DNA of 64,000 bases from Geobacter sp. Lineage in GTDB: Bacteria > Desulfobacterota > Desulfuromonadia > Geobacterales > Geobacteraceae. The notes beneath the pieces were generated by a model. It was not told the origin of the DNA and did not search any database. It saw only the letters and a list, made by a program, of their open reading frames with translations. The DNA lies in NCBI GenBank assembly GCA_003574885.1, contig PJFC01000001.1, positions 62,001 to 126,000 of the forward strand. Direction: 5' to 3'. Numbering within the stretch: the stretch's first letter is position 1; every line of letters starts with the position of its first letter. Of the stretch, positions 24,720 through 40,580 are shown piece by piece. The position numbers and the translations under genes are program-made.

Positions 24720-24735
24720 TGTCAGATTGTCGACA
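24720..24735. promoter_or_regulatory. TGTC-N8-GACA palindrome, copy 1
   Basis: TGTCAGATTGTCGACA. Same spacing and half-sites as 24844, 29040 and 29180. About 200 bp upstream of the TGGCACG promoter element at 24934. Confidence 0.5.
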
Positions 24736-24843
24736 CCGGGAGGAATCTCTATGAGTATGGCTTGAGAGAAATAGCAGCATTTAGCAAATGCCCTAACATA
24801 CTGTTTTGACGTGTTTTTAGAGGACGTCAAAAAATATAGGGAT

Positions 24844-24859
24844 TGTCAAAAAGTCGACA
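24844..24859. promoter_or_regulatory. TGTC-N8-GACA palindrome, copy 2 (candidate activator site)
   Basis: TGTCAAAAAGTCGACA. Its reverse complement, TGTCGACTTTTTGACA, closely matches the sites at 29040 and 29180. The centre is about 82 bp upstream of the sigma-54-like element at 24934, a typical enhancer-binding-protein distance. Confidence 0.6.
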
Positions 24860-24933
24860 GGCAACCTCTTCTTGGCAAAATAAATACTCTAATAAATTAA
24901 GCATGTTACCTGACACGCAAATTTTTTCTCCTT

Positions 24934-24949
24934 TGGCACGACTCTGGTA
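24934..24949 (+). promoter_or_regulatory. Sigma-54-like promoter for the adenine methyltransferase gene
   Basis: TGGCACGACTCTGGTA: the -24 element TGGCAC is perfect; the -12 element reads TGGT instead of TTGC. It lies 75 bp before the start codon at 25024. Support comes from the two similar elements at 29118 and 29259. Confidence 0.5.
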
Positions 24950-25023
24950 ATTACTGGATCCATCGAGCTTGAGCGCACCGGCGGCACGCGCTCACTCACA
25001 CCACGAGGCGAGAGGAGATGTAG

Positions 25024-25521
25024 ATGAAAAAAGGCTTTACCCACGAGGACAGCGGCAGTACTAATGTTGAGTGGTACACGCCACCGGCCGTTTTTACCGG
25101 GCTTGGCGAATTCGCCCTCGATCCCTGCCAGCCCCCGAACGGAATCGACTGGATACCGGCAAAGCGGTTTTACTCCGTTTTAGACGACGGGCTCAAACAG
25201 CCCTGGGAGGGGAGGGTTTGGCTGAATCCGCCCTATGGCAAGCACACGCACGCGTGGCTTGGGAAGATGCACAACCACCGGCAGGGGATTGCCCTGGTTT
25301 TCTCCCGAACGGACTGCGCCTGGTATCACGATTATGTCGCAGCTGCCGATGCGATCCTGTATTTGAGGGGTCGGGTAAAGTTTGTCGATGGTCGGGGGAA
25401 GTCGAAAGGGGGCGGGGCCGGGTGCGGATCGATACTGATCGCATGGGGTGCCGAGAATGTTGACGCATTGAAGCGAATTAGCGACCGTGGTCACCTCGTC
25501 ATAAATAAGCGACTCTCGTGA
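25024..25521 (+). CDS. Phage-type DNA N-6-adenine methyltransferase
   Basis: Small orphan methyltransferase (165 residues) of the phage Dam-like family. It has the opening STNVEWYTPPAVFTGLGEFA, DPCQPPN and the catalytic motif WLNPPYG near residue 67, in the order usual for this family (product N6-methyladenine). GGCGAGAGGAG precedes the ATG. A strong terminator follows. Such methyltransferases occur on phages and plasmids, where they protect against host restriction; that role is plausible here because a type I restriction operon sits in the same island, but this is inference. Confidence 0.88.
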   Translation: MKKGFTHEDSGSTNVEWYTPPAVFTGLGEFALDPCQPPNGIDWIPAKRFYSVLDDGLKQPWEGRVWLNPPYGKHTHAWLGKMHNHRQGIALVFSRTDCAWYHDYVAAADAILYLRGRVKFVDGRGKSKGGGAGCGSILIAWGAENVDALKRISDRGHLVINKRLS

Positions 25522-25530
25522 ATAGTCGCA

Positions 25531-25557
25531 AAACGGACGCGAAAACGTCCGTTTTTT
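25531..25557 (+). terminator. Rho-independent terminator after the methyltransferase gene
   Basis: Stem AAACGGACG / CGTCCGTTT with loop CGAAAA, followed by a run of T. It begins 10 bp after the stop codon. Confidence 0.85.
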
Positions 25558-25594
25558 GTTGACAGCAAACGTCGGTTAAATTCATGTGTTTTTG

Positions 25595-25623
25595 TTTACG
25601 CATAGTGTAAAAAATGATATAAT
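25595..25623 (+). promoter_or_regulatory. Sigma-70-type promoter for the resolvase gene
   Basis: TTTACG, 17-bp spacer, TATAAT (perfect -10), 41 bp upstream of the ATG at 25664. Confidence 0.6.
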
Positions 25624-25663
25624 TAAGTATCTTTTCACCTACAGAGTAACCTGAGGGTTAATA

Positions 25664-26266
25664 ATGGCAGTTTACGGATACATTCGCGTGTCGACCAACC
25701 GGCAGGACGGCGACAACCAGAGATACTCGATCCTTGAGTTCGCCAATGGGAAAAAACTCGGGACCATCGACTTCGTTGATGAGGTTGTCTCCGGGACGGT
25801 GGGATGGCAGAAACGGCAACTGGCAGACCTCATGGACAGGCTAAAAAAGGGAGACACTCTGATTGTAGCTGAATTGTCCAGGCTGGGCCGCTCCATGCTG
25901 GAAATTATGGAACTGTTGTCAATCATGACAAAGAAAGGAGTGCGGATCCACGCTATCAAGGGCAACTATGAGCTGGGGGACAATATCCAGTCCAAGGTTC
26001 TGGCCTTTGCCTTTGCACTCGCTGCCGAGGTAGAAAGGGAGCTGATATCATCGCGGACCAAGGAAGCACTCAGCAGGCGGCGCGCCGAAGGCAAACCACT
26101 GGGTCGCCCAAAAGGCAGCACTGGCCGATCAAAATTGGATGGACGGGAGGAGCAGATACGGGAGCTATTGCGCCACCGGGTTGCAAAAGCGGCTATCGCA
26201 CGGATACTCAATATTTCCAGGCCTGCGCTTCTTGACTTTATCAAGTCCCGCAGCTTGAATGTCTAA
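25664..26266 (+). CDS. Small serine recombinase (resolvase/invertase family)
   Basis: Protein of 200 residues. The N-terminal catalytic domain begins YGYIRVSTNRQDGDNQ with the nucleophile Ser at about residue 10; the ELSRLGRSMLEIM arginine motif lies near residue 68. The C-terminal part is a short helix-turn-helix (VAKAAIARILNISRPALLDF). It resembles plasmid and transposon resolvases and invertases of the Pin/Hin size class. No terminal inverted repeats of a transposon were seen around it. It has its own promoter and is followed 32 bp later by an unknown gene. Confidence 0.92.
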   Translation: MAVYGYIRVSTNRQDGDNQRYSILEFANGKKLGTIDFVDEVVSGTVGWQKRQLADLMDRLKKGDTLIVAELSRLGRSMLEIMELLSIMTKKGVRIHAIKGNYELGDNIQSKVLAFAFALAAEVERELISSRTKEALSRRRAEGKPLGRPKGSTGRSKLDGREEQIRELLRHRVAKAAIARILNISRPALLDFIKSRSLNV

Positions 26267-26298
26267 CAAACTCCGTCAAAGAAGAGGAGGAGCTGGGT

Positions 26299-26685
26299 AT
26301 GACAGACAACGCAAATGCGCGCTGGCGCTTGACGGAACTACCCGGCCGGACGCTTGTCCTGGTTAAAAATTTTGCTCATCACAATAAAGTCCGCCTCCCT
26401 TTTGTGGGGACGACAGTTGCTGTCGCTATCCGGGCAAACGGGATTGCGATCTACGCCATGCCAACCATTGACAAATTGCCGCCTGACAGCGAGAATCTGC
26501 TGCTGGTTATTCCCGCTGGAGCCATCACTATGGAGAATCTCGAAGACCTTTTCCCTGTCCAGGCCGCCGCCGAAATCTTTCTTTCCTACCGCTTGAATCG
26601 CAGACATCTACTGCAGCTGATTATTGGCAACGTCAGCACCGGCGACGACAGAGAGCCTGGCAACCACAAAAGAAAGGAGGTTTGA
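26299..26685 (+). CDS. Hypothetical protein (128 residues)
   Basis: The ATG is preceded by GAGGAGGAG at a suitable distance. It has no signal peptide or membrane segment; it is predicted to be soluble and mixed alpha/beta. There is no recognisable family motif. The C-terminus is charged (DDREPGNHKRKEV). It sits between the resolvase and a small membrane-protein gene on the same strand, within the phage/plasmid-like block. Confidence 0.6.
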   Translation: MTDNANARWRLTELPGRTLVLVKNFAHHNKVRLPFVGTTVAVAIRANGIAIYAMPTIDKLPPDSENLLLVIPAGAITMENLEDLFPVQAAAEIFLSYRLNRRHLLQLIIGNVSTGDDREPGNHKRKEV

Positions 26686-26725
26686 CTACCAACCGGCAAC
26701 CGGCTGCATTTCTCAAGGAGGGTCT

Positions 26726-26935
26726 ATGGGCGGACCAGCCCAACAAAACGAAAAACTGCACCACTACCACCGGATGGCAACATGCGCGACCGAGTTTCTC
26801 GCCATAAGCCTACACTTCCTGTCCACTTTGCATATCAACATCACCCCTTTAGGCACGTCGTTGTTCGCAGCCTATTCGCTCGCAACGGCAACATATCTTC
26901 GTTTCAGCCTGGTTCAACTAAAAAAAGACAATTGA
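26726..26935 (+). CDS. Small hypothetical membrane protein (69 residues)
   Basis: The ATG at 26726 has an excellent AAGGAGG six bases upstream. The frame is open from 26624, but that part overlaps the previous gene and has no ribosome site. Residues 20-60 are hydrophobic (ATEFLAISLHFLSTLHINI, TSLFAAYSLATATYLRF), suggesting two short membrane helices. No family is recognised. Confidence 0.5.
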   Translation: MGGPAQQNEKLHHYHRMATCATEFLAISLHFLSTLHINITPLGTSLFAAYSLATATYLRFSLVQLKKDN

Positions 26936-27013
26936 CGATTGAGCATGGGCGCCGGCAACGGCTGCGCCCATGCATACTATCAATTCTTGCAACATCGCAT
27001 GGAGGCAATATCT

Positions 27014-27871
27014 ATGACATGGAGTGTCCCAACAGCAAAACACGATGCCCTCAGAGCACGTTATCACACCTGCACTTGTCCATCTGGCGCCGAAATCACA
27101 TACAATTGGCGAGATATGAATGTGGTCGATGCTGATTTCGAGCAGGCCGCTGTCAGTTCGAGTGATCGTTACATCTGGTACACCATCCGCTGTTTTGATT
27201 GCGGTAATTATGTGTTGGACAACATGCCGTTTGGTATCCAAGAAACTGGCTATGCCTTGTTTTGTGAGGCGAAAGCTCTGGCAACTGAGTACGCCATTGA
27301 TGTAAACGGGGCGCATCTTGATCCGGACTACGAATTGGCAATTCGCGTTGTTATCGCGGAGGCAGTCAGAGACATTTGGCACAGGTATTGTCAAGGCAAT
27401 GAAACCAGCACCTGCTCTCACCTACTGATGCATCATGGAGAGTATAAATTGCTCTATGACTGCATCAGATGTGTGCTGACGGATTTCGCTCAACTGAAGC
27501 CCGTTAGCGTAAGTCCTGGTTCCGATTTATCCAGGGCCATCGATTGTATGGGGATTGCATGTCTGGAAAAACTGGCCGAAGAGATGATTTTTCGGTTTCG
27601 CACGGCCACTCCAAGGATACTCTATGGCAAGAACTATCATTACCTGCATCTGCCTCTTCACATGGCACAGCCGGCAACTCACTGCATTACCTATGCAGCC
27701 GGCAACGCGGACAAGATGGCGCATTACATGTTTGCTACATACGGAAAGACTGTAGCACGAGGGCTGAGCGAGGCTGACTACATCCGTAGTTTTGAGTCAT
27801 CGCGCGAATCTATCGCTCCCTACTACAGGCTTCTTTTGGCAAATTTGACCCATTTCCACTGGCTCGCTTAA
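27014..27871 (+). CDS. Hypothetical protein with Cys pairs (285 residues)
   Basis: The chosen start at 27014 has GGAGGCAAT upstream; the frame is open from 26939. The product is rich in Cys, His and Tyr. Cys-x-Cys and Cys-x2-Cys pairs occur at HTCTCPSG near residue 20 and CFDCGNY near residue 60, which could bind one zinc, and a further YDCIRC lies near residue 155. The rest appears helical. I recognise no family. A terminator follows 30 bp downstream. Confidence 0.6.
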   Translation: MTWSVPTAKHDALRARYHTCTCPSGAEITYNWRDMNVVDADFEQAAVSSSDRYIWYTIRCFDCGNYVLDNMPFGIQETGYALFCEAKALATEYAIDVNGAHLDPDYELAIRVVIAEAVRDIWHRYCQGNETSTCSHLLMHHGEYKLLYDCIRCVLTDFAQLKPVSVSPGSDLSRAIDCMGIACLEKLAEEMIFRFRTATPRILYGKNYHYLHLPLHMAQPATHCITYAAGNADKMAHYMFATYGKTVARGLSEADYIRSFESSRESIAPYYRLLLANLTHFHWLA

Positions 27872-27900
27872 TAGCCTCTGACACCTGATAAGCCGGCATG

Positions 27901-27944
27901 AAAGAAACGCCGCCAACCTGTAAAGATTTGCGGCGTTTCTTTTT
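27901..27944 (+). terminator. Rho-independent terminator
   Basis: Stem AAAGAAACGCCGC / GCGGCGTTTCTTT, 13 bp perfect, with a 16-nt loop and a T-run. It ends the transcript of the preceding unknown genes. Confidence 0.85.
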
Positions 27945-28019
27945 GCCCTTACTTTTTCTTGCCTGCCGTTCGATTTCCTCTGTAAATGCAGCCACCGCTC
28001 ACAAGAAAGGAACTTATTT

Positions 28020-28910
28020 ATGGACGAATTCGTTGCTGAACCACCGAAAGGCATCCCAAAACCATTGCAGCGCAGGGTCATGATTGAGGGAGCCTATACC
28101 GAGGAACTGGCAAATGACACGAAAAAAATGGCGGAACATCTGAGGCTGCCGGTCAAGTTGCTCCGGCGCTGGCGGCGGCGGGAAGACTTTGGCGGGGTGA
28201 CAGGGTGGCTGTCTCACCCCATTACGCGCGAGGAGTATCTGACACTGCTCATCATCGTCAATTTTGTCTGGGAACTCGATGAAACCTTGCGCATGCAGCT
28301 GTCCCGTAAGACAAGCGCTGCTCGCGAGCGGCTGGTAAACGAATGCGATATGACGTGGATAGAAAGGACCGTCTACCACGACGTTCTCCGGCACAAGCTA
28401 CTGGGGGGCCGGAGACATATGAAATTCAGCATCTACCGGAAGGAGTTGGAAGCTCGTTACAAAAACGGTTACCAACAGCTCAACAGTAAAATCCTCATAG
28501 CCATGAAAAAGAAAGCTGGCAACCAGATCCAGAAAGCACGTGAAGATGGGGCGCTTGAGCTGCTCGCGAAGTCGGTCGATTTGGAAATGCGGGATGGCCA
28601 GTTTGTCAGGCCCCGTCCGGCAACACCTGTCCAGCCGCCGATAGTGCGTGGCGACCACAACGTACCGGAGGAAGTACTGCTCCGCGCCGAAATTGATACG
28701 GCAGTTAAGGAGGAAGCAGCCTCTACCTGCACTGCTCCTCCGGAGGAGTCGGAACCGGACGATGACTTGGCCGAGCAGATCCGGGAATGGGAATTCCTGG
28801 CTTTCTACTCGGATTTGATGCAGGTAAAGCGTGAAAGGGAAAAGAAGAAGAAAAAGAAAAAGGAGAAGGAGAAGGAGAAGGAGAAGGACGACCCTCCTCC
28901 CGCCACATAA
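28020..28910 (+). CDS. Hypothetical protein with charged Lys/Glu tail (296 residues)
   Basis: The ATG follows GAAAGGAAC. Residues 30-60 (NDTKKMAEHLRLPVKLLRRW) look like a helix-turn-helix, so DNA binding is possible. The middle is helical. The C-terminus is acidic (EESEPDDD), then a run of Lys and Glu (KKKEKEKEKEKDD) encoded by simple AAG/GAG repeats, then Pro-rich to the stop. The low-complexity tail may have grown by slippage. No homologous family is recognised. The last codons overlap the left copy of a 49-bp direct repeat. Confidence 0.6.
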   Translation: MDEFVAEPPKGIPKPLQRRVMIEGAYTEELANDTKKMAEHLRLPVKLLRRWRRREDFGGVTGWLSHPITREEYLTLLIIVNFVWELDETLRMQLSRKTSAARERLVNECDMTWIERTVYHDVLRHKLLGGRRHMKFSIYRKELEARYKNGYQQLNSKILIAMKKKAGNQIQKAREDGALELLAKSVDLEMRDGQFVRPRPATPVQPPIVRGDHNVPEEVLLRAEIDTAVKEEAASTCTAPPEESEPDDDLAEQIREWEFLAFYSDLMQVKREREKKKKKKKEKEKEKEKDDPPPAT

Positions 28911-28949
28911 ATAACACAGTTATTTAAATAGTAGCAGATTAGGCAGATT
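28901..28949. repeat. 49-bp direct repeat, left copy
   Basis: Matches 29855-29903 with 4 differences. It contains the palindrome AAATAACACAGTTATTT. It overlaps the stop of the 28020 gene. Confidence 0.8.
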
Positions 28950-29039
28950 GGGGCAGGAGGCATACCGACATCCAACGGTGTCGTCTCCTGCCCGCAATCT
29001 GTTTCTGTTGTGGAACTGTTGTCGGAAGAATAACGCGGC

Positions 29040-29055
29040 TGTCGAAAAATTGACA
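29040..29055. promoter_or_regulatory. TGTC-N8-GACA palindrome, copy 3
   Basis: TGTCGAAAAATTGACA, centre about 70 bp upstream of the promoter element at 29118. Confidence 0.6.
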
Positions 29056-29117
29056 AACATGAGGGTCTGCGCTCAGGCATATCAATAATTGCAGACTGTT
29101 AGCATCCTGTTATGACC

Positions 29118-29133
29118 TGGCACGACTTTTGAG
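29118..29133 (+). promoter_or_regulatory. Sigma-54-like promoter, first duplicate
   Basis: TGGCACGACTTTTGAG: perfect -24 element, -12 element TTGA for TTGC. It leads to the orphan start codon at 29170. Confidence 0.5.
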
Positions 29134-29179
29134 CTACCTCTCAGCAAATTCACTCTTGGGGAGGCAGAGATGATCTACC

Positions 29180-29195
29180 TGTCGAGAAATTGACA
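29180..29195. promoter_or_regulatory. TGTC-N8-GACA palindrome, copy 4
   Basis: TGTCGAGAAATTGACA, centre about 71 bp upstream of the promoter element at 29259, the same spacing as in the first duplicate. Confidence 0.6.
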
Positions 29196-29258
29196 GACAG
29201 GAGGGCCCTTGGCTCGGGTCATATCAATAACTAACGGGGTTAGCTGCTTGTCATGGCT

Positions 29259-29274
29259 TGGCACAACCTTTGAG
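29259..29274 (+). promoter_or_regulatory. Sigma-54-like promoter, second duplicate
   Basis: TGGCACAACCTTTGAG, 37 bp upstream of the 29311 start codon. Confidence 0.5.
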
Positions 29275-29310
29275 ATACCTCCCTGCAAATAATCTCTCAG
29301 GGAGGCAACA

Positions 29311-29754
29311 ATGATTTACAGGATTATGAGGCAGATGTTCTCCATCGACGCAAAGCGCGCCGGGCTCGAGGTCCTCGAGTTCTCCTCCAAATTCTGGCAC
29401 ATGATCGGCGTGTCGGTTTTGGGTGTGCTCGTCGCCAACGTCCACGATCTGGAAACCGGCATGGTCGTCAACATCATCAAGGAGGAAGCCGGCTTCTTTG
29501 TGCACGTTGCGCCGCTGGCGCTGCTGACGGCTGACGTGGAGCTGAACCAGGGTGCGCTGACCATGAACCAGCGGCTGTTCATCGAGGATGCTGAGAAAGC
29601 TGGGCTCACCATCGACTACGACTATAGCGGCAAATTCATGAACGGATACCGCTGCCCAGCGGTTTATGTCGACAGCTACCATCAGGTGGAAACCGATGCC
29701 TATGTCTGCATGGACAATTGGGGGAAACGCTTCGTGGTCTACGCGATGATTTAA
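29311..29754 (+). CDS. Hypothetical protein (147 residues) behind duplicated promoters
   Basis: ATG with GGGAGGCA upstream. It starts MIYRIMRQMF and is predicted soluble. A moderately hydrophobic stretch at residues 28-45 (FWHMIGVSVLGVLVANVHD) could be a buried strand-helix. There is no recognised domain. It sits alone between the two copies of a 49-bp direct repeat, next to the 3' end of hsdR, and is the only gene served by the duplicated control region. That makes regulated expression likely, although the function is unknown. Confidence 0.65.
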   Translation: MIYRIMRQMFSIDAKRAGLEVLEFSSKFWHMIGVSVLGVLVANVHDLETGMVVNIIKEEAGFFVHVAPLALLTADVELNQGALTMNQRLFIEDAEKAGLTIDYDYSGKFMNGYRCPAVYVDSYHQVETDAYVCMDNWGKRFVVYAMI

Positions 29755-29854: not shown

Positions 29855-29903
29855 CGCCACATAAATAACACAGTTATTTAAACGGTCGCAGTTTAGGCAG
29901 ATT
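29855..29903. repeat. 49-bp direct repeat, right copy
   Basis: Matches 28901-28949 with 4 differences, including the identical palindrome AAATAACACAGTTATTT. It ends 13 bp from the hsdR stop codon. Confidence 0.8.
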
Positions 29904-29916
29904 TGCCTGGTCGTGG

Positions 29917-32900
29917 TCAGGCCGCAAAGGGCCAATCGGCGAAGAGCGCTTCCGCCTGCTGGATGATGCGGCTGAGGAACGGCTCGAAGTCCTCCTGCCG
30001 TACCCCCCGCCGGCGCAGGACGCGCCGGACCGCCGCACGCACTGCCGCCTTGACGTCTTCACGATGGGGCTCGGTCCAGTCCACCTTCAGGTTCCCCTTG
30101 ATGGTCTGCACCACATCGTGGATGAGGTTGCAGAGGAACTGCTGGTCGTAGATGCTTTCGCCACTCGCGGCCACGGCGTCATAGAAGGCGAGCTCGTCGT
30201 CGGTCATGCCGAGCTGTTCGGCCCGCTGCCGGTCAGCCTGCATCTGCTTACGGATCTCGACCATCTGCTGGATGACTGCCGCGGCCGTGACCAGCCGATT
30301 GTGGTATTTCTTGAGGGTCTCCTCCAGCATCTGCCGGAACGACTTGGCCTTGAGCGGGTTCTTCTTCAGGTAGGTGTGGATGGCGTCGTCCATCAGCCGC
30401 TCCAGGAGCTTGAGCCGCAGGTCCTCGTGCGACTTGTTCTTGAAGGTCTGCAGGAAATCGTCGTCGAGGATGGAGATGTCCGCCTGCTCAATGCCGGCCA
30501 CCCGGAAGATGTCCACCACCCCCTCCGATTCCACGTTGTCGTCCACGAGGTCCCGCACCGCCCTGTCCAGCTCGTGGCCCTTCTTCTTGCCGCCGGGGCG
30601 CAGCTTGCGTAGTTGCTTCCGGACCCGCTGACAGAAGATCACCTCATCGGCAAATCCCCTGCAGTCGTCCAGATGTTTGACGAGCAGATATGCCGATGAC
30701 AGGCGCAGTTCGGCCTGGAGGAACTGCTCGGTGCGCTCGTCGTCTTCGGTGAGGCCGCCATAGACCAGGGAGTAGAGGTCCTCCATCTCGATCTGTGTCA
30801 TGCGCCGCCAGCCGCCGTAGTCCTGCTCTTCGGGGAGGAGCAACCGTATCTCCTCGAGGCAGGAGAGGAAGAGCGGCCGCGCCGACTCCTCGATACCGGG
30901 GGCGGGTTCGCCGCGGCCGCCTCCCTGGGTGTACTTGGCCGTTGCCTCCCGCAGCTCGTCGCCAACACCGATATAGTCGACGATCAGCCCGTGGGGTTTG
31001 TCGCGGAAGACCCGGTTTACGCGGGAAATGGCCTGGATCATGGTATGGCCCTGCATCGGCTTGTCGATGTAGAGGGTATGGAGACAGGGGATGTCAGTGC
31101 CGGTGAGCCACATGTCGCAGACGATGACGATCTTCAGCGGATCGTCCGGGGCAACCATTCGCTTCTTGATGATGTCCCGCTGCCCCTTGGTGGTGAGGTG
31201 GCCCGCCGCGTTCCATTCGGGGGGATCGTCCGACAGGTTGCCGGTCATGACCACCTTCACCTCAGGACAGCCCGGCAGTGCGGTCAGTTCGTCATAGAGC
31301 CTGACACAGTTCGCCCGGGTCATGCAGACCACCAACGCCTTGCCGTCCAGGGTAGTAGTCCGGTCAGTGAAATGAGTCAGCAGGTCCTCTGCCAGTTGCT
31401 CCACACGCTCCTTGGCGCCGGCCGCGGCCGCCAGGGCCGCCCAGCGGCTCTTGCGCCGCTCCAGCTCGGTGGTGTCGCCAGCCCCCTCGGCCAGTTCCTT
31501 GAGGGAGGCGTCAATGTCCGCCTGGGAGAGATGCAGCCGGACCTGGCGTGGGGCGTAATAGATGGGGACCGTGGCGCGGTCTTCCTGGGACTGGCGGATG
31601 TCGTAGATGTGGATGACGTCGCCGAACACCTCGACCGTGTCGGCGCCGCCAAAGCTGACCGGTGTGCCGGTGAAGCCGATGCGCCGGGCGTTGGGAAGCG
31701 CCTCGGCAAGATAGCGGGCATATCCTTCGGAAAAACCGTACTGGGAACGGTGGGCCTCGTCGGCGATAATGATGACATTGGAGCGTGGGGAGAGGACCGG
31801 GTGCTCCAACTCCCCGTTTTCTTTCTTCAGGCGGAACTTCTCGATGGTGGTGAAGATAACTTCGCCCCCTTCGGTCTGCAGGAGAGTGCGAAGGTCGTCC
31901 ACGCTCTCAGCGTGCTGCACCTCGCCCACCAGCGACCGGGCCACCACGAACTGGTCGTGGAGTTGGTCGTCCAGGTCGGTCCGATCCACCTGGATGACGA
32001 AGGAGGGGTTCTCCAACTCCGGCGTGCGGCGGAGGATGCCGACCAGGAACGCCATGGAAAGGGACTTGCCCGAGCCGGTGGTATGCCAGATGACGCCGAT
32101 CCGCTTGTCGGCGCCAGCTGTGACCGTTTCCACGGTCTTACGGGCCGCCAGCCTCACGGCGAAGAACTGGTGGTACTTGGCTCCCTTCTTCGTGATCTTG
32201 TCGTTCGCCACCTCGAAGAGGACGAAGTCCCGCAGGTACTGGAGGAGCCGCTCCTTGGGGAAGAGCCCCTCCACCAGGGCTTTCATGCTGCCGGTTGTGT
32301 TCGGCTCCACATCGAAGCCGTTGATGGATTTCCACGGCGCGAACCACTCCATGTCGGCGGTCCACATGCCATGGAGGGTGGTTCTGCCGTCGGAGATGAC
32401 CGTAAAGGCGTTGTAGTCGAAGAGCTGGCTGATGTCGTGGACGTAGTGCTGGATCTGGTTGTGGGCATCGTCCACGGTCGGCTTGATGGCATAGGGGTTT
32501 TTCAGTTCGAAAACAACGAGGGGGAGGCCGTTGATGTAGATGATGATGTCGGGGCGGCGGTCGTTCTTGCCGTGGATGGGGAGCTGGTTGCAGACGTGGA
32601 AGTCGTTGGCGGTTGGGGTGTCCCACTGGATGGGGTGGATGTGCCGGTGCTCGACCCGGCCGTCGGGATGCTCCACCTTCAACTCGAAGCCCCGGGTCAG
32701 CAGCTGGTGAAAGGCCATGTTACGCCGGATGGTGTCCACGCCGTCGGGCCGGCTGATGCGGGCCACGGCCTCGTCCAGGGCCGCCGGCGGCAGATCGGAG
32801 TAGCGAGCGGCCAGGTTGGCCCGAAGCAGGTCCTTCATCACCACCTCGTCGTGCGGTCGTTCCAGCTCAAGGCCGAGCAGGTGCCCGTAGCCCTGCTGTT

Positions 32901-32958
32901 CCAGGCGCTCGATAGTGGTCAGCTCGAAGGTGGTTTCCGTGCCCCGGTGATTACTCAT
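29917..32958 (-). CDS. hsdR: Type I restriction enzyme, HsdR subunit
   Basis: ATP-dependent translocase and nuclease of a type I restriction-modification complex (HsdR2-HsdM2-HsdS). Start at ATG 32958 (MSNHRGTETTF), giving 1013 residues; the longer frame to 33048 lies wholly within the upstream gene. The nuclease motif is PDIIIYINGLPLVVFELK at residues 136-153 (PD...ExK), with a Q-rich segment after it. Helicase motif I is HTTGSGKS near residue 292, motif II is DEAH near residue 400, and motif III-like GFTGTPV follows. A SGxxD-like C-terminal helical region binds HsdM in the family. It overlaps the ABC ATPase gene by 8 bp and is the last gene of the operon. Confidence 0.95.
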   Translation of the reverse strand: MSNHRGTETTFELTTIERLEQQGYGHLLGLELERPHDEVVMKDLLRANLAARYSDLPPAALDEAVARISRPDGVDTIRRNMAFHQLLTRGFELKVEHPDGRVEHRHIHPIQWDTPTANDFHVCNQLPIHGKNDRRPDIIIYINGLPLVVFELKNPYAIKPTVDDAHNQIQHYVHDISQLFDYNAFTVISDGRTTLHGMWTADMEWFAPWKSINGFDVEPNTTGSMKALVEGLFPKERLLQYLRDFVLFEVANDKITKKGAKYHQFFAVRLAARKTVETVTAGADKRIGVIWHTTGSGKSLSMAFLVGILRRTPELENPSFVIQVDRTDLDDQLHDQFVVARSLVGEVQHAESVDDLRTLLQTEGGEVIFTTIEKFRLKKENGELEHPVLSPRSNVIIIADEAHRSQYGFSEGYARYLAEALPNARRIGFTGTPVSFGGADTVEVFGDVIHIYDIRQSQEDRATVPIYYAPRQVRLHLSQADIDASLKELAEGAGDTTELERRKSRWAALAAAAGAKERVEQLAEDLLTHFTDRTTTLDGKALVVCMTRANCVRLYDELTALPGCPEVKVVMTGNLSDDPPEWNAAGHLTTKGQRDIIKKRMVAPDDPLKIVIVCDMWLTGTDIPCLHTLYIDKPMQGHTMIQAISRVNRVFRDKPHGLIVDYIGVGDELREATAKYTQGGGRGEPAPGIEESARPLFLSCLEEIRLLLPEEQDYGGWRRMTQIEMEDLYSLVYGGLTEDDERTEQFLQAELRLSSAYLLVKHLDDCRGFADEVIFCQRVRKQLRKLRPGGKKKGHELDRAVRDLVDDNVESEGVVDIFRVAGIEQADISILDDDFLQTFKNKSHEDLRLKLLERLMDDAIHTYLKKNPLKAKSFRQMLEETLKKYHNRLVTAAAVIQQMVEIRKQMQADRQRAEQLGMTDDELAFYDAVAASGESIYDQQFLCNLIHDVVQTIKGNLKVDWTEPHREDVKAAVRAAVRRVLRRRGVRQEDFEPFLSRIIQQAEALFADWPFAA

Positions 32959-34891
32959 TTCTCGGCCAATCCTCCGGCACCAGCTTAAGGCCACCTCTCC
33001 ATCGCTCGACAACAGCTGCTTGATACCAGTCCTTATCGAGATCCGCATGCTCAGTGACGATCACCTGCATCCCAGGCTCCACCTCGCTGACAGCACGTAG
33101 CACAAGGTTGAACATTCGCGATACGGCGAGCCGGTCATCTTCAGTAACGAGCGCCATTGAACCATCGATATCATTCTCGGGAGGGAAGTAGACCTGGGAA
33201 GGTTGGTCGAGAAAAAGGAATCTCGGTACCGGCCTGTTTTTCTGCACGAACCATTGGTGCAGAGCCAAGTGGGCTATCAGATGGTATCCAACCCAGTTTT
33301 CCCCGCTTCCCATTCTGGCCATTGGCACGGGTCCATCTTCGGTATCTGCAACTATCGTTAGCTTCTTGAAGTCGAGACGCAGTGGGAATTTCGAATGCTC
33401 GAGCTCTAGGAGTCGTGCCCATTCTGTCAACTTCTGCCCCAGAATTGAAACGATTGAATCAAGACGCTCTTGAGTCCGCTCATCGCTTAGATCGGTCTCA
33501 AGCGCAACTATCTGTGCGCGAAGACTTTCGGCCTTCGTTTCCAGGGCCGTTGTGTCGGGTAACTCTGGAAGGCTCTCAAGATAAAGGCTTATACGGCCAA
33601 GGATATGGGCACGCTTGGTTGCATCGTCCTGAACATTTGCCAAACTGTCACTCGCGGACCTAACTGCCTCCATCTCTAGGCGGTTCTTGGCGAGCCCGCG
33701 TTGAACTGTCTGGAGCTTTGCATCGAGGTCGGCGATTGCCTTCTCGACTCGAGGCTCTGCACGAGAGACGGAATCGAGCCGTGTCGATACCGCAGATAAT
33801 GCCGCCTTGATAGCGCTTTGTGAAGGCGTTGATGCTCTGTCGGAAAGTTCGTGCGCACATAGAGGACATACTTCGGCCGCATCGGCCCCGGCAAAGATGC
33901 CAATAGTCGTGAGCCTGGCTTGCTGCTCCTTGGCTTCTTTGGAAAAGGCTCGCCCGTCCTGCTCAAAATCTCTCACCAGAGCAATCTCATCGCGAAAGCG
34001 CCGTTGCTCTTCGAGAAGCAGCCTGCGTTCACTCGAAAGTCGCTCGAACTCGGCATTGTCAGGGATGTCGGGGTTCTGGTCTGTTAATGGAGTCGAAGCC
34101 ACATCTCTAAGTGCGCCGACAACACCTTCCCACGTTTCTGACGTCACTTTTGCCAGTCCTGCGTCGCGCGCTTGAGCCAATAACCCTGCACCCTTGCTGA
34201 TGCCATCGCCACTCAGTGCTGCGAGTTCATTGAGGCGCCGGTCACAAAGACGAAGTTCATCTTTCAGACGCCGCAGTTCCTCGCGTTTTCGAACGTACTC
34301 ATCATCTACGGCACCGAGAAAAAAAGGAAGTGTGTCCTTGATAGACTGGGCGACGAAGTTGTCCGCAGTCCCATGAAATAGTTGCTGCCGCCGGATGATT
34401 TCATCTTGTGGCTGAAAGCAAAAAGCAAGCGCATGGCGGATAGTTGCCGTTAAAGGAGAACGCGTTTGTCCGGCAGGCGGTTCGTGGATGTTATCCCGGA
34501 TGCCAGTCCAGCCAGCGAGAAGGGCTCCTAGCCCCTTAGTGTTGGTGGTCTGTCTCACATCGGGCGCAAGGGGCACCTGGACTGAATCACCAACATCAAC
34601 AAAGCACTCTTCGCTTGATGCTGCCCGTGGCCCCGGACAACGTCGCGCAACAAATGCTTGGCCATCGGCAAGTTGCAGGCGCAGGCCAAACCAGGCTACA
34701 CAGCGTCTAATGGGGCCTTCCGGCACCCGGCATTCCCCGCTCCCAAAACAGTAGTCTACGATGTCGATAAGCGCTGACTTACCGGTTTTAGACGCTCCTG
34801 TAATGACATTGAATTTCCCTGGTTGCAACGTGAGCACACGATGCCGGCCATCATGGCTGTAAAGCACAATTTCAAGAATTTGCACACTCAT
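32951..34891 (-). CDS. Rad50/SMC-like ABC ATPase (DUF3732, ABC-3C system ATPase)
   Basis: Protein of 646 residues starting at 34891 (MSVQILEIVLYS). Walker A is GASKTGKS at residues 32-39. Long coiled-coil arms flank a zinc-hook-like CPLC at residues 342-345. The ABC signature SGENW lies near residue 529 and Walker B FLFLD at residues 558-562. This arrangement is that of the DUF3732 ATPase in ABC three-component conflict systems (a class proposed from comparative genomics), where it is thought to sense or process nucleic acid ends and control a partner effector. It overlaps the upstream gene by 4 bp and hsdR by 8 bp, so it is embedded in the restriction operon. The biochemical role is inferred. 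Confidence 0.82.
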   Translation of the reverse strand: MSVQILEIVLYSHDGRHRVLTLQPGKFNVITGASKTGKSALIDIVDYCFGSGECRVPEGPIRRCVAWFGLRLQLADGQAFVARRCPGPRAASSEECFVDVGDSVQVPLAPDVRQTTNTKGLGALLAGWTGIRDNIHEPPAGQTRSPLTATIRHALAFCFQPQDEIIRRQQLFHGTADNFVAQSIKDTLPFFLGAVDDEYVRKREELRRLKDELRLCDRRLNELAALSGDGISKGAGLLAQARDAGLAKVTSETWEGVVGALRDVASTPLTDQNPDIPDNAEFERLSSERRLLLEEQRRFRDEIALVRDFEQDGRAFSKEAKEQQARLTTIGIFAGADAAEVCPLCAHELSDRASTPSQSAIKAALSAVSTRLDSVSRAEPRVEKAIADLDAKLQTVQRGLAKNRLEMEAVRSASDSLANVQDDATKRAHILGRISLYLESLPELPDTTALETKAESLRAQIVALETDLSDERTQERLDSIVSILGQKLTEWARLLELEHSKFPLRLDFKKLTIVADTEDGPVPMARMGSGENWVGYHLIAHLALHQWFVQKNRPVPRFLFLDQPSQVYFPPENDIDGSMALVTEDDRLAVSRMFNLVLRAVSEVEPGMQVIVTEHADLDKDWYQAAVVERWRGGLKLVPEDWPRNE

Positions 34892-35385
34892 GGCCGCACC
34901 CCCAGTAATGCCATAACAGTTCGGCAACTGCCTGTCTTGGCGAACCACCTCCCAACAAACTCAGCCCGCTTGGCACACGCCTTGACCTCGTCACTTGTAT
35001 TTTTAAGGCCTGCGGCAACCTGCCGCTTCCAGTCCGGATTGGCTACCACCTCATGGCCAGTGACACGTATTAGTCCATGGATGCCGCCGAATACTATTGC
35101 TTCCTTGGTAAAGGGGACTATCACTTGAGCACGGTCCGCTATGCGTGCCCGAACCAATGGATGCTCATCGAGCCAAACGGCAAGCGACGTGGCGACTGTC
35201 TTCGGGAGCAACTCCCTTGTTTCACGATGCAGCACGATCGGCAGTACCAGAAAGGATGCGTCAAAGGGCAGGCCGCTCTCAGCCTCGGTCTGGTGACCGA
35301 CCGCCGCATACCAAATAAGTACCGACGAAAAACTCGGCACGAGAAGCGCCCGCTCTTCAAAGGCACGTTCATTCCATGCGCTCAT
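34888..35385 (-). CDS. ABC-3C middle component
   Basis: Protein of 165 residues starting at 35385 (MSAWNERAFEER). It is compact and mostly helical, with a central LVLPIVLHRETRELLPKT and a DEVKACAKRAEFVGRWF helix near the end. This matches what I know of the small middle components of ABC three-component systems (DUF6521-like): they sit between effector and ATPase genes, and a PxxxH..TRxxLP pattern is common. It overlaps both neighbours by 4 bp. It has no enzymatic motif and probably links the ATPase to the effector. Confidence 0.72.
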   Translation of the reverse strand: MSAWNERAFEERALLVPSFSSVLIWYAAVGHQTEAESGLPFDASFLVLPIVLHRETRELLPKTVATSLAVWLDEHPLVRARIADRAQVIVPFTKEAIVFGGIHGLIRVTGHEVVANPDWKRQVAAGLKNTSDEVKACAKRAEFVGRWFAKTGSCRTVMALLGVRP

Positions 35386-36602
35386 GCGACTGCCCCCTGC
35401 GCTTTCAGCAGAGCAGAAAGGCGCTCGCGGAACTCGGGATGCCATCCAACCACTAGCTTATCGGCCAGCATGTGCAACGACCCACGAGTAACGAACGGCT
35501 CAGTTACCCGCGGACGAATCTGGACCCTCGTGGGAGCGGCTTGCTCAGCCCACTCGAGCAGTTCACGGGCAAGTCGTTCTTTTGTCTCCTCTGTTGCAGC
35601 CTCGCCACACCTGTCCGTCATGGCTGCAAATGCGAGCTCCCACTCTTCGAGAAGCCTTCGCTCGTACTTTGTGAGCTCTCCCACGAGGAGTAGATCCTCG
35701 CGAATCCAACGGGAACGCTGAACGAACGCACGGTAATAATCGCGTACTGCCGCGAAAATACGTGTCTTTGCTGCCTTCGTCAGCTCAATTTGCCGAACAA
35801 AGGGAGAATCAGCGTGGGCAGCTTGATTCGCCTCGTCCAAGGTAAAATTAAGAAGATCATCATCGATGGGCAAAGACTCCTGCTTGAACTGCTCCCGGAG
35901 GTCAGACATTTGCGACTCGAGCTCGTCAGCGAGAATACGATCGCCTGATGTAGTCAACTGCTGCAACACTCTGCGAAACCACCAACCCTCAAGCCGCACA
36001 AGAAACGATTCCAGATGTTTTCGCTCGACGGCGGAGAACACCACGGTACGTAACTCCTGATCCAGGGCCGTTATGCTGGGTGACGAGTCGATAACAACGA
36101 CATCATTAAGGATGCTTCGCAGTGTGGCAGCTTGTGTCTTCAGGAAAACGGCGTAAGCACTGGCATTCGTCTGATTGGTGGACGACTGGGCTGTCGCTTC
36201 GAGCGCCGCCAAAGCCACTTCCACATCACGACCTGCAGTTCGGAGGTAGGAAGCAGCCGACCCGCTGGGAGATTGTGCAGTGGTGAGTAGGTAGAGAGCT
36301 GTCCCGGCTACGATTTGGCCTGCATGATATGCCTCCAGCCAAATGCGGAGCGTTTTCCAGAGGTCAGGACTAGCGTCGGTTAGCATCGCCTCCCGTTGGC
36401 GGTGATGTTTCGTTTGCAGAAGTTCCTGTGGAGTGCCGCCCAAGGTTTCGAACGTGACATCATCAAGCGTTTCAACCGATACTAGGAAGTCGGCACCAGC
36501 TGGAAGTCGGCGCAGAGACAGAAGCAGAGCGATGCGCACTTGATACAAATACCCCGTGATGCTATCTGCCGCTGTGAATTGACTAGCGCCCGACGTCGTC
36601 AT
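35382..36602 (-). CDS. ABC-3C effector with Cap4-like nuclease N-terminus
   Basis: Protein of 406 residues. The first about 180 residues resemble a PD-(D/E)xK nuclease of the Cap4/dsDNA-endonuclease type: GYLYQVRIALLLSL, then VETLDDVTFE with the acidic residues near 44-48, then LLQTKHH near residue 62 giving the QxK catalytic pair. The remainder is helical and carries the ABC-3C C-terminal region (DLLNFTLDEANQAAH; LVVGWHPEF near the end). It overlaps hsdS and the middle component by 4 bp each. Nuclease activity is inferred from the motif set; no substrate is known. Confidence 0.78.
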   Translation of the reverse strand: MTTSGASQFTAADSITGYLYQVRIALLLSLRRLPAGADFLVSVETLDDVTFETLGGTPQELLQTKHHRQREAMLTDASPDLWKTLRIWLEAYHAGQIVAGTALYLLTTAQSPSGSAASYLRTAGRDVEVALAALEATAQSSTNQTNASAYAVFLKTQAATLRSILNDVVVIDSSPSITALDQELRTVVFSAVERKHLESFLVRLEGWWFRRVLQQLTTSGDRILADELESQMSDLREQFKQESLPIDDDLLNFTLDEANQAAHADSPFVRQIELTKAAKTRIFAAVRDYYRAFVQRSRWIREDLLLVGELTKYERRLLEEWELAFAAMTDRCGEAATEETKERLARELLEWAEQAAPTRVQIRPRVTEPFVTRGSLHMLADKLVVGWHPEFRERLSALLKAQGAVA

Positions 36603-37909
36603 GGAACTGACTCCAGAAGCTTCTTAGCGCTTTTCACCCGTAGTTCACCGGAAAGAAGCTTGGTAAGCAGGGCATCGCGCAGGTTGGCAAGGGCCAACGC
36701 CTGTCGTTCGCTCTTAAGAAGTCTAGTGTAAATCGGCTGAATGATTTTGCCTGCAGCAACGAGTATTTCAACAGGCGGGAGAGCAACATCGGGCTGCGAT
36801 AAATGCTCACGCTTGATGTGGCCCATTGTTGTTGCCTTGTCGGCAGCCACACCTTGAAAGAATGCCATAGCTTCCCTCAGGTGCTGGTGTACGAACCATA
36901 GAGGATATTCGTCGCATACCACCTTGAAGATGTGCTGGTTCACCAAAGCTTCGTCCCGATGCCACCGATAGACGTCGAGTGAACCAGACCATGAGAACAG
37001 CAAGTCACCAGGAAATGCTGTATTTTCCGGTCCTGACTCGATTTCGTTGTAGATGGTCGAACTCCCAGGCCCAGAGTTTAGTTCTGCTATCCTTATAACC
37101 ATTCGACCTGAGCCTGTTGCATTCTTTGTGAAGTTTCTTCCGTTGACGTAGCGGGCGATATCAGCCGTGCTGCCCTTTCTCCACCCCGCCGGAACCGGCC
37201 CCATCTCGGTATCCTGGAAATGCTCCGGGAACAGGGCAGTTGTGGCATCGTCCATGCCAGCGGGCTTGCGGCCGTCGCGCTTGGCGCTGACCGGTTCGAA
37301 GTCCACAAACCACGCCCGGAAGATGGCCTGCGCCATTGCCTCCAGCGTGCGGTTCATTCGGCGGTTAAGCTCGACCTTGTCGTCCAGCACGCCGAGGATG
37401 CGGGCGATGGCGCGTTGTTCGTCAATGGGGGGAAGGGTAAAACGGAACGCCTCGATCCGGGTCGGCGCCGTGTGAACTATTTTCGTCCCCGATGAAGAGG
37501 CCACCAATTCCTGATTGAACTCTTTCCCGAGAAACACCCAGTAAAGGAAATCGTCACATACCAAGTCAGGTCGAGTCACCACCACTTTGCCCATTCGTTG
37601 GTTATGGAGATACTGTCGCCCATCGTCAGGCACGCGGCCGGGTATGCCAAGGATCTCTCCTCCCGGCGTCTGGCAAGTCATGACCAGCAATGTGTCGCCG
37701 GGCAACAACTTGTACTCCTTTGGATAATCGCCCTCATATCCTTTGAGTTGAGTGCTTTCGAACCGAAAACCACCAGAGTATTGGAAGTTGCCGATGCTTA
37801 CCACTATCGGCAGGCCAGGACTCCACTCGCGAAAGCACTCACTCTTGAAGGGCCAGCCATGCTTTATCCGCATCACGTCGCCGAGGCGTATTTCCTGCCA
37901 CTCAGTCAT
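36599..37909 (-). CDS. hsdS: Type I restriction-modification specificity subunit HsdS
   Basis: Protein of 436 residues that determines the target DNA sequence for HsdM and HsdR. It has two target-recognition domains. The first starts at residue 1 (WQEIRLGDVMRIKHGWPFKS) and ends in the conserved helix LPPIDEQRAIARILGVLDDK near residue 165. The second starts around residue 240 and ends KSERQALALANLRDALLTKL near the C-terminus. It follows the coiled-coil membrane protein gene by 11 bp and overlaps the effector gene by 4 bp, placing the ABC-3C genes between hsdS and hsdR. Confidence 0.95.
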   Translation of the reverse strand: MTEWQEIRLGDVMRIKHGWPFKSECFREWSPGLPIVVSIGNFQYSGGFRFESTQLKGYEGDYPKEYKLLPGDTLLVMTCQTPGGEILGIPGRVPDDGRQYLHNQRMGKVVVTRPDLVCDDFLYWVFLGKEFNQELVASSSGTKIVHTAPTRIEAFRFTLPPIDEQRAIARILGVLDDKVELNRRMNRTLEAMAQAIFRAWFVDFEPVSAKRDGRKPAGMDDATTALFPEHFQDTEMGPVPAGWRKGSTADIARYVNGRNFTKNATGSGRMVIRIAELNSGPGSSTIYNEIESGPENTAFPGDLLFSWSGSLDVYRWHRDEALVNQHIFKVVCDEYPLWFVHQHLREAMAFFQGVAADKATTMGHIKREHLSQPDVALPPVEILVAAGKIIQPIYTRLLKSERQALALANLRDALLTKLLSGELRVKSAKKLLESVP

Positions 37910-37920
37910 AGCTGCCCTTA

Positions 37921-39225
37921 TTATTTCACGGCCTTAATGATTTCCGTCAGCAACGAGCGAAACTCCTTGGATTCTTTCGACTGCAACAGCACATCGACGA
38001 GCGTTGCAGGACTCTTTGCGTCGGGAATCCCGTGTGCTCCGTCGCCATGACCAAAAGACCTCTCACCAATGGTAATACGGAACTCTTCTCGCTTTTCCTT
38101 TGGCAAAGGTGCTATGAAAGGTCCGATTGCTTCCAACTCCAAGGCCAGCCGCCGGTTCTGTCTCTCGACCTTTTGGTACTTGTCTGCCTGGCTGGCGGCA
38201 TAGGCTGCGAGAATGCCAAACGTCAAGGAAATGAACACTCTTCCTGCAAAGCTGCTCCATGAGAAGCCACCGCTGACAACAGGCAAAAATGCCACAATCG
38301 CGATCACTATCAAGCCTACCATTGCGGCGACAGTAACCCTTTGCCAAATCCTGACGGCACCTTTCGCCTCGTTCGCTGTGTTGAGATATCCTGATGTCAC
38401 CCCAAGGTTGCCAATCACGCCAACGAGTTCTTCAATTTCTTTCTTCCGCTCGAGCATCTCTTCGCGGAGCTTCGTTGATTCATCAACGAATTGCTTCTTG
38501 AGGGTTTCTAGCTCGCTTTGATGAAGACGGGCAATGTCTTCTCGTTGCTTTGTGAAGTCGGTGTTTTGTGCCCCCAGCTTCTGAGTAAAATCGGTAAATA
38601 GAGTGCTGGAACGATCCTGTTGCTCTTTCTGAGCGGCAGCAAAATCGCGGGTTCGCGACTCTTGAGCCGTTGAGAATTGTGTCTGAAAATCTGAGCTAAG
38701 GGTTGAAAGTTTTGACTTTTCAGCTGTCATTCCCTCTGACAGCTCGTCGAGGCGCCTTGCTAAAGAAACAATATCAGTGGAGAGCTTCGACGCTCCGGCT
38801 GTAACCTCTGTTAGCGCTTTATCAAGACCACGCCGGTATGTTTCGGCGGCTTCTCTTGCGGCCAGGAAGTCCTCTGTGGTCAATGGGACGTTAAGCTGGG
38901 ACAGGTAGGTAAGAGCCGAATCTGCCTGTGCGTTAGCATTTGTTATATGGCCAGCATTACCATTTGCGATGAAGTTTTGAACTTCTTGCAGCGCTGCTTG
39001 AAGGGCATTATTCAAGCTGTCGAGCGACCCTGTCTGGATAAGGAAAGGGTCAGCACCTGCAAGCCGTCGCCCGGTGAAAGCGAGAACTGACTTAAGCCGA
39101 GACAACGCTTCTGTCGACTGAGCGTCTACCCCTTCTCTCGCAAGCGCATTATCGATAGCAGGCCCGAGATTCTCCAGAATTTGCCATATTGGGTGGCCTT
39201 GAATCCGTTCAGTTATTTGAGCCAT
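37921..39225 (-). CDS. Membrane-anchored coiled-coil protein within the restriction operon
   Basis: Protein of 434 residues not assigned to a family by me. Residues 1-130 are helical and soluble. Residues 135-275 form a long coiled coil rich in Gln, Glu and Lys (TKQREDIARLHQSELETLKK). Two membrane helices follow at about 297-316 (VTVAAMVGLIVIAIVAFLPV) and 326-345, with a short loop. The C-terminal 85 residues are soluble (PFIAPLPKEKREEFRITIGE). The topology predicts both ends in the cytoplasm. It lies between fic and hsdS, 36 bp after fic and 11 bp before hsdS, so it is co-transcribed with the defence genes. A membrane-tethering or sensing role is only a guess. Confidence 0.7.
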   Translation of the reverse strand: MAQITERIQGHPIWQILENLGPAIDNALAREGVDAQSTEALSRLKSVLAFTGRRLAGADPFLIQTGSLDSLNNALQAALQEVQNFIANGNAGHITNANAQADSALTYLSQLNVPLTTEDFLAAREAAETYRRGLDKALTEVTAGASKLSTDIVSLARRLDELSEGMTAEKSKLSTLSSDFQTQFSTAQESRTRDFAAAQKEQQDRSSTLFTDFTQKLGAQNTDFTKQREDIARLHQSELETLKKQFVDESTKLREEMLERKKEIEELVGVIGNLGVTSGYLNTANEAKGAVRIWQRVTVAAMVGLIVIAIVAFLPVVSGGFSWSSFAGRVFISLTFGILAAYAASQADKYQKVERQNRRLALELEAIGPFIAPLPKEKREEFRITIGERSFGHGDGAHGIPDAKSPATLVDVLLQSKESKEFRSLLTEIIKAVK

Positions 39226-39261
39226 TTCTGCCTCCTCCCATCACACAGAACCGTTTGCAAG

Positions 39262-40479
39262 CTATTTCATCTGCTCCGGATACAGGTCTGGGAACAAGTA
39301 TCCCGCCACAAAGGTCGGAAAGGCCAGTCTGACCGGCCCCTTCGGCATATCTGAAACCAGCAGCCCTTCATCCAGCAACTGCCCCAAAACCATTCGGCCG
39401 GTCCGTTCCGCCATGCCCGAAACCCGAATCATGTCCCCACGGGTCACCTCGCCCCGCAGCAAGGCCTCTTGCAGCATATAGGCCGCCTCCGGCTTGAGGG
39501 TCGGCTGATCCGGCTTCGGCGCTGGCGCGACTTTGGCCCCACGCAGTTGAACATACCCCCGTATCCGGTTGAGGAGGACATCCAGCCTCAGCAGACCGTT
39601 CATGTAGTCGATCTGGTCAAGACAGACCTCGAGGAAGAACCGGCAGAACTTCACCAGCCCCTCGTTGGAGAGGTCCCCCCGGCCGTCGAAATCGTTGCGC
39701 CGCGGTGCGTCGCCTTGCGTCAGGGCCACCATGTAGTCGTCGCGGCGTCGGGCCAGGCCACGGCTTACATTCCAGAGTCCGTACCCGAGGAGCGGCAATT
39801 TGCGGAAGCAGGCGTCTGTGTAGAGTCTCGTCACCCGGCCATTGCCGTCGAGGAAGGGGTGAATCCACATGAGGCGATGGTGGGAGGCGGCAGCGGCAAT
39901 GATGGGCGTGACACCGTGGTGGTCGTCGCTCCGGTAGAACCCTGCAAAGCGCTCGAAAAAAGCCGGCAGCGCGTCGGCGAGCGGTCCGATGTGGCGGCCG
40001 ACCTGAATCTCCCGCTGCCGTGGCTCCCCGCCGACCACTTCCAGCACCTCGCCGCTCTGCTCATCCTTCACCCGTCGCAGTTCGGGGGGAAGTTGGTCGT
40101 AGAAGGTCTTGTGCACCCAGCAGAGAAAGTCGGCGCCCGCCACGTTCAGGTCGGGTTCCCGCTGGAGACGCTCCTCGATCCGGCGCTGGCAGTCGATGTG
40201 GGCGAGGCTTTCCTGCTGCAGGTCGCGCTTTGCGGGGTCAGCGGCGTAGTCGTGGCGCATGGCCCGCTCGATGTCAACGGGGTTGGTGCTGTGTCCCTCA
40301 ATGAGGTTCGAGTAGTAGCTGTTGATGAGCCGCAAGAGCTCGACGACAGGGCGCTGGCTTATGGGATGCAACTGGCCGCCGAGGGCTGCGGAGCGGCCGA
40401 CGGTCTCCCGGGCCATGTCCTCAAGGCCGAAGTCTCCGGTGGGGAGCAGAGGCTCCATATGGGATATCTTATTGTACAT
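39262..40479 (-). CDS. Fic-domain AMP-transferase-like protein
   Basis: Protein of 405 residues with the Fic active-site motif HPFLDGNGRVTR at residues 207-218 (catalytic His 207). An N-terminal inhibitory helix SNLIEG lies at residues 57-62, the class II layout in which a Glu blocks the ATP site. The C-terminal part contains a winged-helix-like segment (LLRGEVTRGDMIRVSGMAER) used by many Fic proteins for DNA binding. AMPylation is the family activity; the target is unknown. It sits 101 bp after hsdM and 36 bp before the coiled-coil gene in the restriction operon. Fic proteins are often found in such loci, but their role there is unsettled. Confidence 0.9.
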   Translation of the reverse strand: MYNKISHMEPLLPTGDFGLEDMARETVGRSAALGGQLHPISQRPVVELLRLINSYYSNLIEGHSTNPVDIERAMRHDYAADPAKRDLQQESLAHIDCQRRIEERLQREPDLNVAGADFLCWVHKTFYDQLPPELRRVKDEQSGEVLEVVGGEPRQREIQVGRHIGPLADALPAFFERFAGFYRSDDHHGVTPIIAAAASHHRLMWIHPFLDGNGRVTRLYTDACFRKLPLLGYGLWNVSRGLARRRDDYMVALTQGDAPRRNDFDGRGDLSNEGLVKFCRFFLEVCLDQIDYMNGLLRLDVLLNRIRGYVQLRGAKVAPAPKPDQPTLKPEAAYMLQEALLRGEVTRGDMIRVSGMAERTGRMVLGQLLDEGLLVSDMPKGPVRLAFPTFVAGYLFPDLYPEQMK

Positions 40480-40580
40480 ATTGCCGATGTTAATGCATAA
40501 TTAATGTGATGCATAACTCTTTATCACAAAAGACAATAACTGTCAAAATAATGTAACTTAACAGGCATAAATGCCGATTA

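Follow-up and report, generated by a model that had tools for sequence, protein, structure and literature searches.

The upstream activator sequence of the NifA type of sigma-54 (RpoN) system is TGT-N10-ACA. A closely similar palindrome, TGTC-N8-GACA, occurs four times in a 64-kb stretch of a Geobacter sp. genome (contig PJFC01000001.1, positions 62,001 to 126,000), which is the whole stretch of DNA that was analysed and is called the window below; coordinates are those of the window unless a locus is named. The four sites belong to a mobile island located at a tRNA-Asn gene, and three of them are followed by sigma-54-like promoter boxes. Every base of the familiar NifA-type sequence is matched by the palindrome, and a -24/-12 promoter follows at a distance of about 100 bp. 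It differs in that the window sites also keep the extra C/G pair and the inner RR/TY bases. Furthermore, the genes behind them encode a methyltransferase and a small island protein and not nitrogen fixation functions, and no host protein was identified as NifA. Control regions in which an activator acts on a promoter from an upstream palindrome are of a known kind; neither this instance on a defence island, which recurs in a sister species, nor the regulation of the island family was found in the literature searched, which covers few subscription journals. On balance, we favour the explanation that the island carries its own sigma-54 promoters with an upstream activator site, which would be bound by an enhancer-binding protein of the host.

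The four 16-bp palindromes are located at 24720, 24844, 29040 and 29180, where an earlier note on this DNA had placed them, and a pattern search of the window revealed none further. In dinucleotide shuffles TGTC-N8-GACA is found 0.86 times per window on average, and four occurrences are reached in 1 of 100 shuffles; the sites are thus far more clustered here than at random. All four sites fit the longer form TGTCRR-N4-TYGACA. Counted together with its reverse, this form has a mean of 0.04 and a maximum of 1 per window in 300 Markov shuffles, a significance that is inflated because the form was defined with the window sites already known. The site from the sister species described below was retrieved with the plain pattern and is therefore an independent match to the longer form. 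The host genome (3.47 Mb, 23 contigs) contains 40 TGTC-N8-GACA sites, four of them the island's. None of the four lies in an open frame of at least 100 codons, compared with 32 of the 36 sites outside the island (Fisher 8e-4). Seven of the 40 sites display the longer form in one orientation or the other; apart from the four of the island, these are three sites within long open frames. The site C1:512625 was rejected as a candidate, as it fits the longer motif but lies within a kinase gene.

The hexamer TGGCAC, which provides the GG at -24 of a sigma-54 promoter, is present at 24934, 29118 and 29259, each time downstream of a palindrome, in agreement with the earlier note. The first box precedes the gene of a phage-type DNA N-6-adenine methyltransferase (25024–25521, forward strand; Pfam Dam, 1e-14). 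The promoter of this gene contains a distal palindrome, TGTCAGATTGTCGACA, at 24720–24735, with its centre at about -232 (-232.5) relative to the predicted start, and a proximal palindrome, TGTCAAAAAGTCGACA, at 24844–24859, with its centre at about -108 (-108.5), neither being assigned to a strand. The sigma-54-like box TGGCACGACTCTGGTA at 24934–24949 (forward strand) has a good -24 element. The other two boxes precede the 29311 gene (29311–29754, forward strand), which encodes a 147-aa protein with two copies of a rare 66-aa domain and no assigned function. About 140 bp of sequence is duplicated in tandem here, with copies that begin at 29040 and 29180 and are identical in 108 of 145 alignment columns. 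Copy 1 (29040–29179, forward strand) consists of the palindrome TGTCGAAAAATTGACA at 29040–29055 and the box TGGCACGACTTTTGAG at 29118–29133, and leads into a 7-codon frame (29170–29193) and then into copy 2 (29180–29319, forward strand), which has the palindrome TGTCGAGAAATTGACA at 29180–29195, centred at about -97, and the box TGGCACAACCTTTGAG at 29259–29274. Three promoters had been claimed previously. Three boxes are indeed present, but since two of them are duplicated copies, the window holds two independent promoters.

The distance from the palindrome centre to the first G of the -24 GG is 83.5, 71.5 and 72.5 bp for the boxes at 24934, 29118 and 29259, respectively. Relative to the predicted start, the palindrome centres lie at about -108.5 for the methyltransferase promoter and at -96.5 and -97.5 for copies 1 and 2. 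The -108.5 centre is about one helical turn from the -96.5, -97.5 and -97.5 centres of the two copies and the sister species. The palindrome of copy 1 is at about -237 relative to copy 2, and the distal site of the methyltransferase promoter is placed similarly (-232.5). Upstream activator sites are expected to lie about 80–150 bp before the start with a conserved spacing, and this arrangement is found both in the window and in the sister species. The probability of finding TGGCAC 50–80 nt downstream of a random window position is 0.0127. Three of the four window sites have it at this distance (binomial 8e-6; 5e-4 with the duplicated copies collapsed). With this background and this test, the pairing of the palindrome with TGGCAC is beyond chance.

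The strongest indication of a genuine module comes from a sister species of the same genus (G025). It has a related tRNA-Asn island, which was found among the 38 matches of the order-wide scan for the pairing. According to blastn, the two islands share 85% identity over 45457–47135, 89% over the end repeat and 72% over 25504–28073; a 49-bp repeat and the 3′ end of the restriction gene share 80–83%, and the promoter stretch itself is unaligned. In the window, the palindromes of the 29311 gene are preceded by the gene of a 296-aa island protein (28020–28910, forward strand). Its homologue in G025 (43% identity) is followed by the repeat, the palindrome TGTCAATGGATTGACA with its centre at -97.5, the sigma-54 box TGGCACGAAGGGTGCT and then a different gene, a 59-codon, Cys-rich frame unlike the window's gene. 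The box in G025 is a canonical -24/-12 promoter with GC at -12, and it is close to the G. sulfurreducens RpoN consensus TTGGCACGGTTTTTGCT as given in PMC2725144. The same spot, palindrome form and spacing thus recur together with a canonical promoter, and with another gene behind it. A further canonical sigma-54 promoter, TGGCACGAATGGTGCT, also with GC at -12, stands directly before the host paralog of the 29311 protein (70 aa, L226 9819–10031). In view of these two canonical promoters, sigma-54 control is likely for this element family, as far as can be read from the sequences.

Several observations weigh against this explanation. Ten bases after the GG, the window boxes read GT (24934), GA (29118) and GA (29259) where GC is expected; the non-canonical -12 elements mentioned in the earlier note are hereby borne out. 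With a simple consensus score the boxes reach 23, 24 and 23, respectively; 15 sites elsewhere in the window reach at least 24.5. The genome-wide search envisaged in that note was run with a spacing of 45–75 nt between the palindrome and TGGCAC. Three of the five places found in the host belong to the island, but in the other two the palindromes lie within open frames of 273 codons (L268) and 371–375 codons (L265), so that no further host promoter with the pairing was found outside open frames. No palindrome, even with one mismatch allowed, starts 40–160 bp upstream of the box of the paralog. A more distant island relative, G012 (26939-type protein 49% identical), carries TGTCGGAAAAATGACA and, 20 bp downstream, a second copy with one mismatch, but has no sigma-54-like box near these palindromes. 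Across the order the pairing is only weakly in excess (38 versus 26 in the backward control), and the host enhancer-binding proteins with readable sites appear to use other sites.

The off-consensus -12 boxes could also reflect decay. The window promoters would then have been functional once, as the G025 version may be, and would have kept the palindrome and the -24 element and lost the -12 element. The GA, GA and GT of the window versus the GC in G025 and at the paralog fit this explanation, as does copy 1, behind which there is no more than a 7-codon frame. We nevertheless find decay improbable: the diverged copies keep the palindrome (15/16), CATATCAATAA, TGGCAC (6/6), TTTGAG (6/6) and the ribosome site, and this looks like constraint. 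We infer that the window promoters may be active despite their off-consensus -12 boxes.

We propose that a dimer of a host enhancer-binding protein would bind TGTCRR-N4-TYGACA at about -97 in front of the 29311 gene or at about -108 in front of the methyltransferase gene. The second copy of the palindrome, at about -237 or -232, respectively, would probably help. The bound activator would loop onto the RpoN-polymerase waiting at TGGCAC and would switch on the phage-type adenine methyltransferase and the small 29311 protein, beside type I restriction and Lamassu-like genes. If this holds true, a mobile defence island has, through RpoN, placed accessory genes under a host signal, and these genes are neither constitutive nor element-controlled; this would tell at what times the element modifies DNA or is protected by its own genes. 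The precise site and the predicted transcript starts (24960 and 29285; 29144 for copy 1) make the proposal testable.

The host genome encodes one RpoN and has 22 Sigma54_activat matches, not all of which are enhancer-binding proteins (about 20 candidates). None of the 22 lies in the window, as the earlier note had stated. That note proposed an island regulon under an enhancer-binding protein. The proposal stands insofar as the palindrome/sigma-54 module belongs to the element, as seen in G025, and the regulator lies outside the window; the binder itself would probably, but not necessarily, be an enhancer-binding protein. The word regulon is also generous for two independent promoters in the window and one in G025. 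Four host enhancer-binding proteins are related to a protein from G111 (42–46% identity). They are not obviously the binder, since the promoters downstream of their genes carry other repeats: GTGCGACA-TT-TGTCGCAC at one of them, GTATAACC-type repeats at two, and none by script test at the last. These promoters, one just downstream of each of the four genes, are sigma-54-like (L233 18554, L269 4303, L270 2483 on the reverse strand and L271 4981), and the repeats ahead of three of them are clear inverted repeats. PilR was considered as well. Its site in the host pilA promoter resembles the window sites in having TGTC half-sites ahead of a sigma-54 promoter, but the half-sites are turned the other way and are closer (TGACA-N5-TGTCA). 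The window architecture does not match, and PilR was rejected as the binder.

The sequence of the palindrome raises another candidate, a CRP/FNR-family (CooA-like) regulator, whose operator it would be, with the TGGCAC box either incidental or part of a co-regulated promoter. The 16-bp core consensus of the CooA operator in PMC7306483 is TGTC-N8-GACA, the Desulfovibrio CooA sites share this core according to PMC545781, and the island sites also fit TGTCR-N6-YGACA. We regard a CooA-like operator as unlikely. The inner bases of the window sites are unlike those of the Desulfovibrio form, TGTCGGCNNGCCGACA; the genes behind the sites have no link to CO use, and the spacing between the site and a sigma-54 box is constant. 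Only two host proteins with HTH_Crp_2 exceed the cut-off. Both stayed below every curated NCBIfam cut-off, in a library that was not checked for the presence of a CooA model. Among the delta-proteobacteria then sequenced, CooA was found only in Desulfovibrio according to PMC545781, a point tempered by the mention of CooA in a paper on CO growth of Geobacter (PMC4703632). Moreover, a CooA-like operator leaves the constant spacing to the canonical -24/-12 promoter in G025 unexplained.

The distribution of the module was assessed in wider scans. In 138 genomes of the order, a scan for the palindrome and, 50–80 nt downstream, a sigma-54-type box gave 38 matches compared with 26 in a backward control. 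Among 277 genomes of the class, the longer form with TGGCAC gave 15 matches compared with 5 in the control. Three of these are the window's own, one is in G025 and 11 are elsewhere, including near-copies of one sequence in G573, G575 and G579. By these counts, the module seems to be nearly confined to this element family. In viral_contigs, TGTC-N8-GACA followed by TGGCAC after 45–75 nt was present in at least 120 stretches, which was taken as chance background.

This near-specificity would also suit a DNA-binding protein encoded on the island itself, for example the 28020 protein, acting on the palindrome as a repressor or an activator. Both islands have the 28020 gene immediately before the palindrome, and to our own eye the N-terminal stretch of its product looks like a helix-turn-helix. 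The protein had no family match in protein-family searches, however. Its distant relatives in G103 and G109 come without TGTC-N8-GACA in the stretches examined, and G012, which has palindromes, gave no match to the 28020 protein. We consider an island-encoded binder quite unlikely and retain a host enhancer-binding protein as the favoured one.

At five promoters in four other genomes of the order, a site with the same core precedes the sigma-54 box by 52–68 nt. Among 30 loci inspected for such sites, the pattern lay outside open frames of at least 120 codons in 8. Four of the five promoters are from three genomes of family f2 of this order (G001, G002 and G004). They share the TGTC-N8-GACA core and have a sigma-54 box 52–63 nt after the nearer site. 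They differ from the window promoters in having two TGTCC-N6-GGACA-type sites 19 bp apart, with CC/GG inside, and other genes behind them; one overlaps the start of an open frame. The f2 promoters apparently constitute a regulon of their own. A further TGTCC-N6-GGACA-type site lies downstream of the box in the f2 promoters L273, L274, L275 and L276 (G001, G004 and G002). In G111, a single site is located 68 nt ahead of a box, before an enhancer-binding-protein gene.

The genes near the host paralog of the 29311 protein (L226 = G000:C11:224000-243999) match TnsD/TniQ and TniB, which are Tn7-like transposon genes, and the repeats ahead of the paralog promoter look, by our own reading, like Tn7-type end sites. 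About 460 bp downstream of this promoter, TGTC-N8-GACA occurs twice at a spacing of 20 bp; no other two of the 36 sites that the host has outside the island form a close pair. A tentative and rather doubtful extension of our proposal is that a small sigma-54 regulon is common to two unrelated elements of the same cell, the tRNA-Asn defence island and the Tn7-like transposon. A host enhancer-binding protein would act through TGTC-N8-GACA, placed upstream in the island and as a downstream tandem pair in the transposon, and would control a rare family of small proteins together with the adenine methyltransferase; transcripts from the sigma-54 start of the 29311 gene might, in addition, be without the 5′ arm of a hairpin by which the ribosome site is concealed in read-through RNA. 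This possible hairpin covers the ribosome site of the 29311 gene (29278–29305, forward strand). It is weak (z -1.75; 8 of 200 shuffles fold equally well) and is absent from copy 1. It may be suggested that RNA read through from upstream could hide the ribosome site in the hairpin, and that RNA starting at about 29285 would be without most of its 5′ arm. Sigma-54-type promoters are often bent by IHF. The sequence CATATCAATAA, kept in both copies, is similar to the initial half of the IHF consensus WATCAR-N4-TTR as quoted in PMC7962754, which is a resemblance only.

The 29311 protein is a tandem duplication of its 66-aa domain, which elsewhere occurs as single-domain proteins in few genomes: the host itself, G053 and one Lentisphaeria metagenome-assembled genome. 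A profile of the domain detected two loci in genome_contigs (those of G053 and the Lentisphaeria genome), no match in viral_contigs and, in a sample of 395 genomes of the phylum, no genome other than the host's own. A related-locus search found no relatives of the protein in viral_contigs or genome_contigs. Its predicted structure has a mean predicted local distance difference test score (pLDDT) of 54, with residues 1–81 below 50, and no Foldseek match at E<=0.001 was obtained in the PDB or viral libraries.

The 29311 gene and its promoter are bracketed by two copies of the 49-bp repeat (28901–28949 and 29855–29903, forward strand), which could be a cassette boundary. The repeat brackets a promoter and a small gene in both islands (G025: L221 ~6682–6733 and 7602–7653), and the enclosed gene differs. 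Relatives of the 28020 and 26939 proteins were not found in viral_contigs, and none of the 26939 protein in plasmids or phages. The island is bounded by direct repeats of 165 bp that are 91% identical, the left one at 13006–13170 and the right one at 46971–47135, neither assigned to a strand, the latter running into the tRNA-Asn gene (47118–47193). In G025, another element seems to separate the island end from the tRNA. A defence cluster at 29917–42230 (reverse strand) comprises the type I restriction genes R, S and M with matches to LmuA, LmuB and LmuC (Lamassu-like) and a Fic-like gene between them. Two integrase-type recombinases are encoded on the island.

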